This document shows positions 3,087-23,001 of a stretch of DNA of 23,123 bases, one piece after another. The stretch lies in the IMG/VR virus record IMGVR_UViG_3300002242_000929, positions 1 through 23,123 of that record; one strand, written 5' to 3'. Numbering within the stretch: the first letter of the stretch is position 1; every line of letters begins with the position of its first letter. Below the pieces are notes generated by a model, which ran no database searches, was not told the origin of the DNA, and was given only the letters and a program-made list of their open reading frames with translations. The DNA is from a virus. The position numbers and the translations under genes were made by a program.

Positions 3087-3674
3087 TTGAAACGTAAACT
3101 ATTTATTAAATCTGAAGAAGAACGAATTGTTTCCGGGGAAGTGTATTCTCCATTAGATATTGATACTGATGGAGAAGCGATGACAAAAGAAGAAATCAGA
3201 AAAATGGCGTATAAATTTCTTGCCTCTGGAAGAGTAAACAAAATTGATATCAATCATAATGAAGTAGAATCGGGAGTTGTTGTTGTCGCTTCGGATATTG
3301 CAAAAGTAAATGATCCTGATGGATTTACTGAAGGAGCTTGGGTATTAACTGTTTATGTTGAGCCTGATGAAATTTGGCAGAAAATAAAAAAAGGTGAACT
3401 TAATTGTTTTTCTTTTGGTGGAGATGGGTATACTGTTGAATTAGATTCAACGGTTAGTGTTCCCAAAGAAGCTATTGGAAAAACTGAATTATCTTTGAAA
3501 GATGTTCCTCTTCCTCCTCATGATCATGATGTCCATTTAACTTTTGATGAGAATGGAGATTTGATTCCTACTGAAACAGGAAAAACCTTAAACCATGTCC
3601 ATTATATAAAGAGTGTATCTGCAACTGAAGTAACATTTGACCATGCTCATCGAATCATTTTTGAAGAGGAGTAA
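3087..3674 (+). CDS. XkdF-like prohead serine protease
   Basis: This 195-residue protein resembles the XkdF putative phage protease family, which processes scaffold and capsid during head maturation. Family-like features are SGEVYSP (16-22), DTDGEAMTKEEI, a candidate catalytic His in DINHNE (H57), GAWVLTVYV, and a candidate nucleophile Ser in CFSFGG (S109). The start is TTG at 3087, chosen because AAAAGGAG (3071-3078) lies 8 nt before it. The in-frame start at 3054 lies upstream of that site. The C-terminal 55 residues carry three HxH motifs (H145/H147, H170/H172, H186/H188), an extension that could bind metal. The next gene follows 4 nt later, and its ribosome binding site lies inside this gene. 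Confidence 0.82.
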   Translation: MKRKLFIKSEEERIVSGEVYSPLDIDTDGEAMTKEEIRKMAYKFLASGRVNKIDINHNEVESGVVVVASDIAKVNDPDGFTEGAWVLTVYVEPDEIWQKIKKGELNCFSFGGDGYTVELDSTVSVPKEAIGKTELSLKDVPLPPHDHDVHLTFDENGDLIPTETGKTLNHVHYIKSVSATEVTFDHAHRIIFEEE

Positions 3675-3678
3675 ACAA

Positions 3679-4845
3679 ATGGCTGTTAAAATTACACAAT
3701 TTGAAAATACTAAAAAAAAGACAGGGTTTAATGTTGATGTTGATGCAAAGTTTGTTTCTCTTGTTCAGCATGGAGCAAATCAAAAAGCATTTAAAATTAT
3801 AAAAAATGATAAAGGAGGAAAAATGCAAGAAAAATTTATACAAAGTGTTGTATTACGAAAAAATGTAAAATTAGATGATATCACATCTATAAAAGGATTG
3901 GAATACTTGGCTGAAGTTAAAGATTGTGATGTGAAAAAAACTGAAGATTATTCAGTGTTTACTCAAATTGATGCCAATAAAATGAAAGATTTGCAACTTT
4001 CTAAAGTGGAAGACAAAGCTTTCATTATTTTTGGTGATCTTTCTGAGGAAGCTGATGTTGATCAATCTAAACTTCTGACTCTTTCAAAAGAACAAATGGA
4101 AAAAATTGAAAAGGGAGAATTTCCGACCCCGAAAGCTTATGAATGGAATCCTTCTGTTTCTTCCATGTTTTTTGATTCTTTTGATAGAGAATTGTTTGCA
4201 ATGGTGGATATAATTGAAGGAACTTTGAGACAAGCTAATATTCCCCCTGCAACAATGAAGAAAACTATTTTGGGAGCTATTTCTGCTTTCCAATCTTTTA
4301 TGTCCATGGCTATTGATTCCCTTAATTCAAATTCGTCTGGAGATAAAGTTGCTAAGTTTGAGAAAGTTGAAAATGTGTCCAAACTGTTGAAAAATAAATT
4401 TATTGATAAAAACACACAAGAAAAAGGAGGAAATCAAATGTTTACGTTCGAGAACAAAGAAGATTTTGAAAAAGCGGTTGATGAAAGAATGCTTGAAATT
4501 TTGAAAAAAGCAAAGGAAGCTGAAAAGGAAGTCGAAAAGGAAACAGAAGTAACGAAATCGGAGGAGAAGAAAAAGGAGGAAAAGAAAAAAGAGGAAACTT
4601 CCGAAAAAACTTCCAAAGAAAAAAATGAAACTTCCGATGATTCTAAAATTTCTGAGATTCTGGAATCTTTGAAAGTCTTGGGAACCCGGGTGGAAAAAAT
4701 GGAAAATGCGATAACGACTCCCCCCGCTGGTATCAAACAGGATGAGGAAGAATCTGATACTAAGGATAAAAAGGAGAAAACTGAAAAAGACGATAATCCT
4801 TTTAAAGGATTTTTTACAAAAGACATTAGTAAACTTGTCAGTTAA
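3679..4845 (+). CDS. capsid assembly scaffold, long form
   Basis: This 388-residue protein starts at ATG 3679, with GAGGAG at 3666-3671. Residues 25-42 contain FVSLVQHGANQKAFKIIK, a motif I recall from scaffold or XkdF-associated proteins next to the capsid gene. A mixed central domain (about 49-250) follows. The last 135 residues are a Lys/Glu-rich helical region (about 270-330), a second short helix and an acidic linker ending DNPFKGFFTKDISKLVS, typical of a scaffold. Two internal in-frame ATGs have near-perfect ribosome binding sites (3823 and 4438), so shorter products are likely. It lies between protease and capsid, the usual scaffold place. It would guide procapsid assembly and then be cleaved or expelled. 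Confidence 0.78.
   Translation: MAVKITQFENTKKKTGFNVDVDAKFVSLVQHGANQKAFKIIKNDKGGKMQEKFIQSVVLRKNVKLDDITSIKGLEYLAEVKDCDVKKTEDYSVFTQIDANKMKDLQLSKVEDKAFIIFGDLSEEADVDQSKLLTLSKEQMEKIEKGEFPTPKAYEWNPSVSSMFFDSFDRELFAMVDIIEGTLRQANIPPATMKKTILGAISAFQSFMSMAIDSLNSNSSGDKVAKFEKVENVSKLLKNKFIDKNTQEKGGNQMFTFENKEDFEKAVDERMLEILKKAKEAEKEVEKETEVTKSEEKKKEEKKKEETSEKTSKEKNETSDDSKISEILESLKVLGTRVEKMENAITTPPAGIKQDEEESDTKDKKEKTEKDDNPFKGFFTKDISKLVS
3823..4845 (+). CDS. possible internal-start scaffold form (intermediate)
   Basis: An in-frame ATG at codon 49 of the long scaffold gene is preceded by AAAGGAGG (3811-3818) with a 4-nt gap, rather short but close to consensus. Initiation would give a 340-residue protein lacking the N-terminal FVSLVQHGAN motif. 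Lys-rich coding (KNDKGGKM) could produce such a site by chance. The presence of a second, better site at 4438 makes deliberate internal starts more plausible. Confidence 0.45.
   Translation: MQEKFIQSVVLRKNVKLDDITSIKGLEYLAEVKDCDVKKTEDYSVFTQIDANKMKDLQLSKVEDKAFIIFGDLSEEADVDQSKLLTLSKEQMEKIEKGEFPTPKAYEWNPSVSSMFFDSFDRELFAMVDIIEGTLRQANIPPATMKKTILGAISAFQSFMSMAIDSLNSNSSGDKVAKFEKVENVSKLLKNKFIDKNTQEKGGNQMFTFENKEDFEKAVDERMLEILKKAKEAEKEVEKETEVTKSEEKKKEEKKKEETSEKTSKEKNETSDDSKISEILESLKVLGTRVEKMENAITTPPAGIKQDEEESDTKDKKEKTEKDDNPFKGFFTKDISKLVS
4438..4845 (+). CDS. nested scaffold protein, Nu3-like arrangement
   Basis: An in-frame ATG at codon 254 of the long gene has AAAAAGGAGG at 4421-4430 and a 7-nt spacer, as good as the capsid gene's own site. 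The 135-residue product (MFTFENKEDFEKAVDERM...) would be almost entirely charged coiled coil, then Pro/Gly and acidic linkers, and a basic-aromatic tail (FKGFFTKDISKLVS) that could contact the capsid protein. This matches the lambda C/Nu3 logic, where scaffold is made separately from the 3' part of the gene upstream of the capsid gene. The difference here is that the protease is a separate upstream gene. Translation from this site is inferred from sequence only. Confidence 0.65.
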   Translation: MFTFENKEDFEKAVDERMLEILKKAKEAEKEVEKETEVTKSEEKKKEEKKKEETSEKTSKEKNETSDDSKISEILESLKVLGTRVEKMENAITTPPAGIKQDEEESDTKDKKEKTEKDDNPFKGFFTKDISKLVS

Positions 4846-4907: not shown

Positions 4908-5855
4908 ATGAATTTTCGAGAAGTTCTCAATAAAGCTCAGTTGACTGTTGCTGATCTTGTGACGAATGGTGGGTATCTTACTGCTGAACAGAATAACAGG
5001 TTTATCCGAGATATCCAGAATACCCCTACAATTGTAAACCAGATGCGAGTAGTCCCGATGAATAACCCGACGATGGAACTCAATAAAATCGGGTTTTCTG
5101 AAAGGATTCTGCGTGCCGCTCCCGCTTCCGGAGCACTTAGTGCGGCTGATAGGGCCAAGCCGACCACTGGGAAGGTTGAATTGATGACAAAAGCTGTCCG
5201 TGCCGGTGTCCGCCTTCCTTATGACGTGTTGGAAGACAATATTGAACGTGGGTCTCTTGAAACTACCATTATGCAGTTGATCACTGAACGTGCCGCTTTG
5301 GATATCGAAGAATTGGTTCTCCTTGGAGACACTTCTTCTGATGATTCCTATCTTGCCCTTTTGGATGGTATTTTGAAACAGGCCAATCAGCATATTGTTG
5401 ATTATACTTCCGCCCCTGCCGCAATGACCAAAACTGTTTTCAAAGATATGGTAAAGGCTATGCCTAATAAATATCTGAGAAATCGAAGGGAATTCAGGTT
5501 TTATATTTCTCCGGATGCTGAAACTGAGTATGTTGATTCTATTGCAGATAGGCAGACTCTTCTTGGTGATACTAAAATCAATACTTGGACACCGAATTCC
5601 CCCTACGGAATTCCGATGGAGTCCGCAGCTTTGATGCCGAATGCTAAGGGCATTCTGACACATCCGAAAAATATGATTCTTGGTATCCAAAGGAATATCA
5701 TGATCGAAACTGACAAAGATATTGAGGCTCAGGAACTCATTATCGTGGTTTCCATGCGTCTGGATGCCAAGTTTGAGGAAATTGATGCTGTCGTCAAAGT
5801 TGATGGGCTTGATCCTGATGGTGATTACACGCAGACCTCCACGACGAGTGCGTAA
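4908..5855 (+). CDS. major capsid protein, HK97-fold type
   Basis: This 315-residue protein forms the icosahedral shell. AAGGAGG (4895-4901) lies 6 nt before ATG. Family-like features are GGYLTAEQNNRFIRDI near residues 21-36, a long basic-to-hydrophobic middle with KAVRAGVRLPYDVLEDNIERG (E-loop/spine region), RAALDIEELVLLGD, RREFRFYISPDAE, and a C-terminal strand region where NMILGIQRN is followed by an Asp-rich end. Position after the scaffold supports the call. Its G+C content and codon choice are visibly higher than the neighbours, as expected of a very highly expressed gene. The end, QTSTTSA, is Thr/Ser-rich like other structural proteins here. No crosslinking or protease site is assigned. 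Confidence 0.9.
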   Translation: MNFREVLNKAQLTVADLVTNGGYLTAEQNNRFIRDIQNTPTIVNQMRVVPMNNPTMELNKIGFSERILRAAPASGALSAADRAKPTTGKVELMTKAVRAGVRLPYDVLEDNIERGSLETTIMQLITERAALDIEELVLLGDTSSDDSYLALLDGILKQANQHIVDYTSAPAAMTKTVFKDMVKAMPNKYLRNRREFRFYISPDAETEYVDSIADRQTLLGDTKINTWTPNSPYGIPMESAALMPNAKGILTHPKNMILGIQRNIMIETDKDIEAQELIIVVSMRLDAKFEEIDAVVKVDGLDPDGDYTQTSTTSA

Positions 5856-5884: not shown

Positions 5885-6157
5885 ATGTCTGAAGTTACCC
5901 TGTTAAAACCTGCGTCACACACAATTATCAAATCTTTTCCTACAGGAAAGAAAATCAGATTTGTGGGGGGAGTCACATTAACTGTTTCTGATGAAATTGC
6001 GGCAATTTGTGAAAGTTTAAATCCGGAAAATGAGGCTCCTCTTTTTAAAGTTGTTTATTCTGACCCTGTAGAAAATGAATCAGAAGGTACCAGACAAGAA
6101 CCTGTAAATTCTAAACCCAAGTCATTAAAAATTTTTGATTTTGAGGATAATTCCTAA
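5885..6157 (+). CDS. small protein following capsid gene
   Basis: This 90-residue protein has AAGGAGG (5870-5876) 8 nt before ATG. The N-terminal 60 residues look like a small beta-rich domain (VTLLKPASHTIIKSF, IRFVGGVTLTVSDEIA), followed by a polar, likely disordered tail with EPVNSKPKSLKIFDF. Small proteins of this size after the capsid gene can be decoration or connector accessory proteins, but I cannot assign a role. The stop overlaps the next start (TAATG), so the two are translationally coupled. Confidence 0.7.
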   Translation: MSEVTLLKPASHTIIKSFPTGKKIRFVGGVTLTVSDEIAAICESLNPENEAPLFKVVYSDPVENESEGTRQEPVNSKPKSLKIFDFEDNS

Positions 6158-6705
6158 TGTTAATTTGTACCAAAGGCGGGGCTGAATCTAATAGTTTTGT
6201 AACGCTTGAAGAAGCGGATGACTATATTCTTAAATTGCCTGATGATCCTGATCCTTGGTTTGCTTTAGCACCATGGCAAAAAGAATATAGACTTCAACTA
6301 GCGGCACAATTATTAAATATGTTTCCTTTTATAGGTGAAAGGAGTTATCGAAATCAAAATTTGGCTTTCCCTAGAACATGTACCAATCATGAGATTCCTG
6401 AAGAAGTAAAGGAAACTCAGGTTTTTCTTGCTTATAGTGTTGTACACCGAGGGCTTGCTTTAAGAGGTGTCGATGTAACACAAGGGGAAAAGGATAGGGT
6501 AACCCAAATTTCTCTTGCTGGGTTACTTATGGTTTCCACGGCTGGGTTATCTCAAAGTGTTAGAAGTTCTTTTCTTGACCAAATGCTTAACTCTGCTCAA
6601 TTTCCTGTTTTTATCCGTCTTTCAAGATGGATGACTAAAATCAGAGCAAGAGTTGTGAGAGACCCAAATAGTTCACCTAAATTAACAACAACGACAACAG
6701 TGTGA
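6157..6705 (+). CDS. head-tail connector (DnaT-like/gp6-like family)
   Basis: This 182-residue protein has the signature SNSFVTLEEADDYILKLPDD...W (residues 11-35), a helix with LQLAAQLLNMF, then NLAFPRTCTNHEIPEEVKETQVFLAYSVV. This matches the phage family often labelled 'DnaT-like ssDNA-binding' but better explained as a head completion adaptor of the gp6 type, which docks on the portal ring. Location after the capsid gene supports the adaptor role. The start overlaps the upstream stop. The C-terminus ends in five threonines and a Val. The next gene starts 4 nt after the stop with no visible ribosome binding site. Confidence 0.75.
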   Translation: MLICTKGGAESNSFVTLEEADDYILKLPDDPDPWFALAPWQKEYRLQLAAQLLNMFPFIGERSYRNQNLAFPRTCTNHEIPEEVKETQVFLAYSVVHRGLALRGVDVTQGEKDRVTQISLAGLLMVSTAGLSQSVRSSFLDQMLNSAQFPVFIRLSRWMTKIRARVVRDPNSSPKLTTTTTV

Positions 6706-7953: not shown

Positions 7954-8979
7954 ATGCACAGCACAGATTTTTACACATTAGGCAAAGGAATTTTGTATTT
8001 TTCTAAAAAGAATGAGGATGGTTCTTATCAAGGACACCGAGACCTTGGGAATAGTCCTTCATTCTCAACTTCTATTGATCTCACTCTTTTGGAGCATTTT
8101 TCTTCCCGGAAAGGGTTGAAAGCAAAAGACAAAAAAATTGTCCAAACTTCAACTCCTAAAGTCAAGTTTACTCTTGATGAGCCGAATATGAAGAATCTTT
8201 CGCTTCTCAATCTCGGTAACCTTGAAGAAATTGTTCAAGAAGCAGGAAAAGGGTTTGTTGACACTTTTGATGTCAAAGAACAGGATGTTTATTTGACAAA
8301 TCAGGAAACCGGCAAACGAAATTGGGAACCCTGCCCGTATCTTCGATATGATGGGGGTAGCGGGATGTTTGCTGTAGATGAGACTGTAACAGGCGATGCC
8401 GGTGCTACTGCGATTGTAAAAGCAGTCATTGGAGATGTTACTTCCGGTATTCTTTTGCTTGATAGCATCTCGGGGAATTTTGTTGATGGTGAGAATCTGA
8501 CAGGAAGTGTTTCTGGTCTTGCCGTTGCTAATGGGTCTCAGGTTATCCCCGCTGACAATGATGTACTTGTTTGCAAAGCAGATGGTTCTGTGGTTTACAC
8601 TTTGGATACGGATTACACCCTTGACCTTACTCGGGGTCGTATTTTTATCAAGAGTGGGGGAGCAATTACCAGCCCTGAAACAATTTCTGTAGGGTACAAT
8701 TATGGAAAAGTGAAGTATTCACGAATTAGTGTCTCTAGTGACACCATGATTGAAGGGGAACTCCATTTTATCTCCGATAATCCGGTTGGTGAAAATATCG
8801 AGATTCTCTTTTGGAGAGTTGTTTTGACCCCTTCCGGGGATTTCAATCTTATTGGAGATAATTGGGAAACTCTTGGGTTTGATGGTGAAATTCTGATTGA
8901 CACGGAAAATCATCCTTCTCTTCCCTATGGACAAATCCTTGGAGATATTGAAACTATGGAAACCACAACTACAACGTAA
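7954..8979 (+). CDS. major tail tube protein
   Basis: This 341-residue protein with AAAAGGAGG (7941-7949) lies where the tube gene is expected, before the chaperone pair and tape measure. The N-terminus (YTLGKGILYFSKK...GHRDLGNSPSFSTSID) and EGELHFISDNPVGENIEILFWRVVLTP near the end are typical of tube proteins built from two beta sheets. Residues about 135-190 (ETVTGDAGATAIVKAV, SGNFVDGENLTGSVSG) look like an extra GETVTG-type beta module inserted in the tube fold, seen in other phage structural proteins. G+C content is higher than the neighbours, in line with high expression. It ends in five threonines. No sheath gene is present, so the tail is non-contractile. Confidence 0.82.
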   Translation: MHSTDFYTLGKGILYFSKKNEDGSYQGHRDLGNSPSFSTSIDLTLLEHFSSRKGLKAKDKKIVQTSTPKVKFTLDEPNMKNLSLLNLGNLEEIVQEAGKGFVDTFDVKEQDVYLTNQETGKRNWEPCPYLRYDGGSGMFAVDETVTGDAGATAIVKAVIGDVTSGILLLDSISGNFVDGENLTGSVSGLAVANGSQVIPADNDVLVCKADGSVVYTLDTDYTLDLTRGRIFIKSGGAITSPETISVGYNYGKVKYSRISVSSDTMIEGELHFISDNPVGENIEILFWRVVLTPSGDFNLIGDNWETLGFDGEILIDTENHPSLPYGQILGDIETMETTTTT

Positions 8980-22578: not shown

Positions 22579-23001
22579 ATGGGAGTTGCATCACTAGATT
22601 CTGTAATCCTCGGGGAGGATGTATATTGGAAAGATGAATGGGATTGGACTCCTGTCCCTCAATCTGTAAGAAGGGCTTTAGATGGTACTCTTGTTATTGA
22701 ACGTTTATTCCAATATACAAGTGGAAGACCTGTAACTTTATTTTGTAGTTGGGTTTCATATGATACTGTTAAAGAAGTTGAAACATTAAGAGATTCTGAA
22801 ACACAAAATCCAATGTTATTAACATTAGCTGATGGGAGAACAATGCATGTTTTATTCAGACACCATGAGGGGAACCCAATTTCAGTTGTTCCTGTTTTAG
22901 AAAGACCTGATTATATAAACCAAAAAAATCCTGATTATTATGATTTAACAATTCGATTATTTGAAATTTCTGATGAAATCCCAGTAACAACAACGACATA
23001 A
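22579..23001 (+). CDS. tail-tip structural protein
   Basis: This 140-residue protein has a ribosome binding site AGGTGA (22569-22574) before ATG. The pattern ILGEDVYWKDEWDWTPV, then LDGTLVIE, then SGRPVTLFCS, then LADGRTMHVLFRHHEG and a final YYDLTIRLFEI matches a common phage tail protein found after the small OB-like gene. Its role in the tail tip is structural, the exact contact unknown. It ends VTTTT, another poly-Thr tail. A partner gene follows 15 nt downstream. Confidence 0.75.
   Translation: MGVASLDSVILGEDVYWKDEWDWTPVPQSVRRALDGTLVIERLFQYTSGRPVTLFCSWVSYDTVKEVETLRDSETQNPMLLTLADGRTMHVLFRHHEGNPISVVPVLERPDYINQKNPDYYDLTIRLFEISDEIPVTTTT

Follow-up and report, generated by a model that had tools for sequence, protein, structure and literature searches.

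To our knowledge, how tailed phages load a small number of dangerous protease molecules into a scaffold-filled procapsid has been detailed for few systems, and chiefly for fusion, as in lambda. According to a passage of PMC8508860, which cites Shaw and Murialdo 1980, the lambda genes C and Nu3 overlap. The lambda initiator consists of C, Nu3 and the portal (PMC3224144), and the lambda protease belongs to the S49 family (PMC10695390).

Here we describe a locus from an IMG/VR virus record, analysed over its whole length of 23,123 bases (the window). The gene between a prohead protease and the major capsid protein, called here the outer gene, contains two putative internal starts: site 1 at ATG 3823 and site 2 at ATG 4438. 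Its full-length protein comprises an N-terminal segment (N-segment), an M domain and a coiled-coil scaffold. As with lambda C/Nu3, a scaffold would arise from an internal in-frame start in a larger, protease-related gene placed before the capsid gene, and a minor long product is proposed next to a major short one. Unlike in lambda, where an S49 protease lies whole within C, the protease core is here a separate gene of the S78_2 type; the scaffold gene has only the proposed last strands of the protease, two internal starts and the extra M domain.

Three further systems can be set beside the locus. The PBSX-like XkdF (PF14550; ORF10 of Bacillus phage PBP180) shares with it the protease domain family, the N-segment and a coiled-coil scaffold part, and has a Nu3-like internal ATG at aa 190; however, N-segment, protease and scaffold are there parts of a single polypeptide, whose N-segment precedes the protease domain. 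In gp51 of Streptomyces phage Genie2, a fused S78 prohead protease, an SLVxxPAN strand follows the protease core and is itself followed by the scaffold, whose part of the gene holds an internal GTG258 behind AAGGAGGTG. There, in contrast to our locus, no stop separates the core from its last strand, and the M domain is missing. Finally, phages of the SIO-2, VHS1, DLP_5 and RcZahn type have the same three-gene order, the N-segment and a Met after it, but their site-1 Shine-Dalgarno sequence (SD) is weaker and site 2 is not clear; the outer gene is annotated there merely as hypothetical.

Our search of the open-access literature on the XkdF scaffold, on nested scaffold starts and on a split prohead protease turned up no account of this arrangement.

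Results

The locus and its gene order

The features of the locus are collected in Table 1. The protease gene matches PF14550 with 74.3 bits (cut-off 24; E=1.1e-20) and phrog_15223 with E=2.7e-41. The residues at its two predicted catalytic positions, H59 and S111 (L005 numbering), are invariant across 26 proteases and both present in the window. The gene ends without the terminal SLV..AN strands of S78 proteases. Three HxH pairs, H148/H150, H173/H175 and H189/H191 in the same numbering, are invariant as well: placed 3' of the protease core and before the missing last strands, they look like a metal site. Compared with T4 gp21, the core shows a weak resemblance (probability 0.69-0.77, rmsd 3.1 over 105 columns, E about 0.5). 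The protease profile gave chance matches only against the sequences of solved structures, and a search of NCBIfam returned nothing useful.

Table 1 Features of the protease-scaffold-capsid locus in the window.
Feature	Position	Strand	Details
XkdF-type (Peptidase_S78_2) prohead protease core gene	3087-3674	+	TTG start; PF14550, phrog_15223
Outer-gene SD, GAGGAG	3666-3671	+	from sequence; dG -8.6
Outer gene, full length: N-segment, M domain, coiled-coil scaffold	3679-4845	+	388 aa; single open frame
N-segment, aa 1-48	3679-3822	+	core motif FVSLVxxGANxxxFxxxK; full-length product only
Internal SD 1, AAAGGAGG	3811-3818	+	dG -11.6; 4 nt to ATG 3823
Putative nested product from ATG 3823: M domain and scaffold	3823-4845	+	340 aa; proposed bulk scaffold
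M domain: alpha/beta part aa 52-145 and helix pair aa 158-217	3832-4329	+	AlphaFold2 pLDDT 86-96
Internal SD 2, AAAAAGGAGG	4421-4430	+	dG -11.6; 7 nt to ATG 4438
Putative nested product from ATG 4438: helices of the coiled coil plus the conserved FxG tail	4438-4845	+	135 aa
C-terminal tail motif, NPFKGFF	4795-4815	+	F375 in at least 90%, G377 invariant; common to all three products
Major capsid protein, XkdG type	4908-5855	+	phrog_1623, E=4.7e-106

The SD of the outer gene sits within the final codons of the protease gene. A preliminary description of this DNA had begun the outer frame at 3811, which is the first base of internal SD 1; the true start is ATG 3679. The capsid gene, of the XkdG type with HK97 fold and with homologues annotated XkdG, follows directly downstream. 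Its protein has a Thr/Ser-rich C-terminal tail, and poly-threonine tails likewise close three structural genes of the window, 6157-6705, 7954-8979 and 22579-23001 (KLTTTTTV, ETTTTT and VTTTT, respectively).

Two internal start sites of high predicted strength

ATGs 3823 and 4438 had been described as in-frame starts behind SDs of their own, the second with a spacing of 7 nt. Both are found at these places within the single frame of the outer gene, and the spacing is confirmed from the sequence. In strength, their SDs come close to those of the best gene starts in the window. Of its 738 plus-strand ATG/GTG codons, no more than 15 have an SD with dG <= -10, and these include six gene starts and the two internal sites. 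The predicted unpaired values are 0.78 for the site-1 SD and 0.80 for the site-2 SD, against 0.33 for the outer start.

Conservation of the starts in relatives

The outer protein, used by itself as a direct query, brought up no relatives, so we gathered them through the capsid protein, a route that gave 80 viral contigs, 215 phage records and 8 bacterial genomes. In most contigs extending far enough upstream, a homologous open reading frame again lies between the protease and capsid genes. The test set was made of 31 non-redundant outer genes, that of the window and 30 others with 18-31% protein identity to it.

At the position of site 1, all 31 genes have an SD-bearing ATG or GTG, where synonymous shuffling gives a mean of 9.8 and a maximum of 19. 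Under a stricter spacing rule the site is found in 30 of 31, whereas equally long control windows from the same genes show one in 6.6% of cases. Among 47 more distant loci, 42 have it at a weak threshold (11.8% of control windows) and 16 at dG <= -8 (2.1% of control windows); the site-1 SD is weak in distant phages. Site 2 occurs in 19 of the 31 genes (8.7 expected by synonymous shuffling, maximum 15), a count that, like the other start-conservation statistics, ignores shared ancestry, although silent sites are saturated at 20-30% identity. It is present in all 16 members of the nearest clade and absent from the clade around L022-L029.

The threshold of dG <= -8 is reached across the 31 diverged relatives by 30 of 31 site-1 starts and by 15 of 15 site-2 positions, the latter picked for having a start, versus 21 of 503 other in-frame ATG/GTG codons; since the compared positions are the best start of their region, Fisher values overstate this difference, whereas the shuffling and control-window tests use the same best-of-region rule. 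Where an internal start is not ATG, it is GTG. The SD itself is coded as GGA-GGN, AAG-GAG or AGG-AGA: residues differ and bases stay. Its being written in three codon frames points to selection on the bases and not on the residues, and conservation of the peptide is rejected as the cause of the AAGGAGG sites.

One of the two predicted internal starts is conserved across about 80 relatives. We hold it very probable that site 1 is a real nested start, and probable that site 2 is one. The earlier proposal of nested in-frame scaffold starts with three possible products gains support from this conservation. The same proposal had named, as an outcome that would speak against it, close relatives that lack the internal sites although their outer gene is intact. 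We checked for this: site 1 persists almost throughout, site 2 within one clade.

The outer gene of Pseudomonas phage PA_L9 (2528-3910) departs from the common layout. It begins with a stretch similar to the N-segment, with no Met following, seems to carry one more copy of an M-like domain, and has an ATG331 that resembles site 2.

Domain layout of the outer protein

In an AlphaFold2 model of the outer protein, built on 26 aligned outer proteins, aa 1-50 are disordered (pLDDT of the N-segment 43-49) and precede the M domain. After the M domain come a disordered linker, two helices (260-303 and 321-343) and a tail, disordered as well, that bears the conserved FxG motif. Met49 stands just ahead of the first strand and Met254 just ahead of the coiled coil: both internal starts fall on predicted domain borders. 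This layout agrees with the earlier view that the product from 4438 is the coiled-coil part alone. The NPFKGFF tail is presumed to contact the capsid protein.

Fold searches with the M domain against solved structures found no known fold and only its equivalent in Pseudomonas phage SM1. In some prophages the domain is missing, and the outer gene is reduced to N-segment, start and coiled coil.

In nearly all relatives, the SD of site 1 (mostly -11 to -13) is stronger than that of the outer start (about -6 to -10). A stronger and mostly unpaired SD suggests that the scaffold is made chiefly from 3823, with the full-length protein as a minor product.

The N-segment resembles the missing strands of the protease

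The part of the outer protein that site 1 skips has the consensus FVSLVxxGANxxPFxVxK. In almost all loci that extend far enough, it lies in the gene that follows the protease, and it aligns with the head of the fused XkdF of PBP180. The N-segment weakly matches positions 7-38 of phrog_3017, a head maturation protease (E=0.0076), and the phrog_3017 positions that come after are those matching the upstream protease gene. Aligned with hhalign to the terminal strands of S78 proteases, it reaches a probability of 78.6%, the S78 stretches having been picked by this same motif. These S78 proteases were taken from bacterial genomes in a class-wide search; in the genomes that carry the prophage loci, no S78 protease was found.

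We also modelled a read-through chain from loci that have protease and outer gene in the same frame, with the stop read as a residue. In this AlphaFold2 model (mean pLDDT 85, pTM 0.72) the N-segment forms strands with pLDDT 90-96, in a chain that tethers it to the protease and with 11 of the 26 alignment rows covering it. The neighbouring capsid protease lacks its last strands, and the N-segment resembles them; the model predicts that this segment completes the fold of the protease in trans.

Because aa 1-48 resemble these missing strands, the outer frame reads as a fusion of a protease piece and a scaffold, and is for that reason nearer to lambda C/Nu3 than the preliminary description held. 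Its comparison with lambda is upheld in that the scaffold start is nested in a longer gene and has its own ribosome site. It had also set the protease apart as an upstream gene of its own; this is right for the core, but the resemblance of aa 1-48 to the missing strands means that the protease is not simply separate from the outer gene.

Stenotrophomonas phage DLP_5 has a 56-aa gene (2488-2658) between the protease and the outer gene.

Discussion

A proposed path for the protease into the procapsid

The start sites are conserved, they lie at the borders of the modelled domains, and the protease gene and the N-segment keep constant company. The reading that we favour, and consider fairly likely, is a nested protease/scaffold set of the lambda C/Nu3 type whose protease domain is divided between two genes by a stop codon. 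The upstream gene would supply the protease core. The outer gene would give, with some 48 N-terminal residues, the last beta-strands of the protease, and then the M domain and the coiled-coil scaffold. Its full-length product, made from an SD weaker than that of site 1 in most relatives, may bind the core, and the docked core would enter the procapsid as part of the scaffold. For this docking we see an even to fairly good chance. Several points count against the favoured reading: the tethered read-through chain with few rows over the N-segment, the choice of the S78 stretches by their own motif, the weakness of the match to T4 gp21, the N-segment of PA_L9 with no start behind it, the weak site-1 SD of distant phages and the lack of site 2 in one clade.

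From site 1, with its stronger SD, would come the bulk scaffold devoid of protease strands, as the conservation of this start suggests; site 2, kept in one clade, may yield a short fragment made up of the coiled coil and the tail presumed to bind the capsid protein. The strength of the start sites would then decide how much scaffold bears protease strands relative to plain scaffold, the dose of protease may be set by the frequency of full-length synthesis, and the long and short scaffolds would play the role that C and Nu3 have in lambda. That this is a natural split prohead protease, in which a start skipping exactly the N-segment sets how many scaffolds dock or switch on the protease, appears to us about an even bet.

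Fused protease-scaffold genes have unannotated SD-bearing in-frame starts before the scaffold part, namely ATG190 in PBP180 and GTG258 in Genie2. The fused gene of Methanobacterium virus Drs3 has an unannotated, SD-bearing internal ATG230 in the same place. With such starts present in fused relatives, the nest may predate the split.

Alternative readings

The nested starts could be real and the N-segment nevertheless no part of the protease, acting on the few full-length scaffolds as a tag for docking to the portal or core. Its location on the scaffold in all loci with a separate protease fits such a tag, and tagged scaffold present in minor amounts at the portal vertex would suit head assembly generally. 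Three observations speak instead for a protease part: the N-segment folds with the protease in the read-through model, it is similar to the S78 terminal strands, and in fused XkdF it directly precedes the protease domain. We regard the docking tag as unlikely.

It is also conceivable that the AAGGAGG sites make the ribosome pause, or are left over from genes that were formerly separate, with the full-length protein alone being made. Disordered linkers do part the modules, so that pausing there could aid folding, and linkers rich in Lys, Glu and Gly tend to write SD-like sequence (0.3-0.5 per gene under the synonymous null). Yet a start codon, ATG or else GTG, is kept at suitable spacing behind the SD across very divergent genes; pausing does not require a start codon, and remnants of former genes would not survive down to 20% identity. 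This makes the idea quite improbable.

A fusion of the protease and outer frames into one long protease-scaffold protein, by read-through of the stop or by a frameshift, is rejected as extremely improbable. In roughly one locus in four, the outer gene does lie in frame behind the stop of the protease gene. The frame relation varies freely (35/20/19), however, the two genes are separated by gaps of 10 to 549 nt, and most outer genes begin with an SD and an ATG of their own, so neither event would be the normal way in which the protease parts meet.

Significance

In the favoured reading of a protease divided between two genes, the docking idea is the new part; the arrangement is a variation of the lambda-type nest and not a separate kind of system. 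It suggests a second route for loading the protease: the scaffold would bear a strand required by the protease, and the number of bearing copies would be set by an internal start. The gene set comes from phages of Vibrio, Stenotrophomonas, Rhodobacter and Rhizobium and from uncultured phages. A conserved gene annotated as hypothetical gains a proposed function, and gene callers pass over one to two start sites in each genome, which stay unannotated. If true, the split protease would couple both the incorporation and the activation of the protease to assembly.
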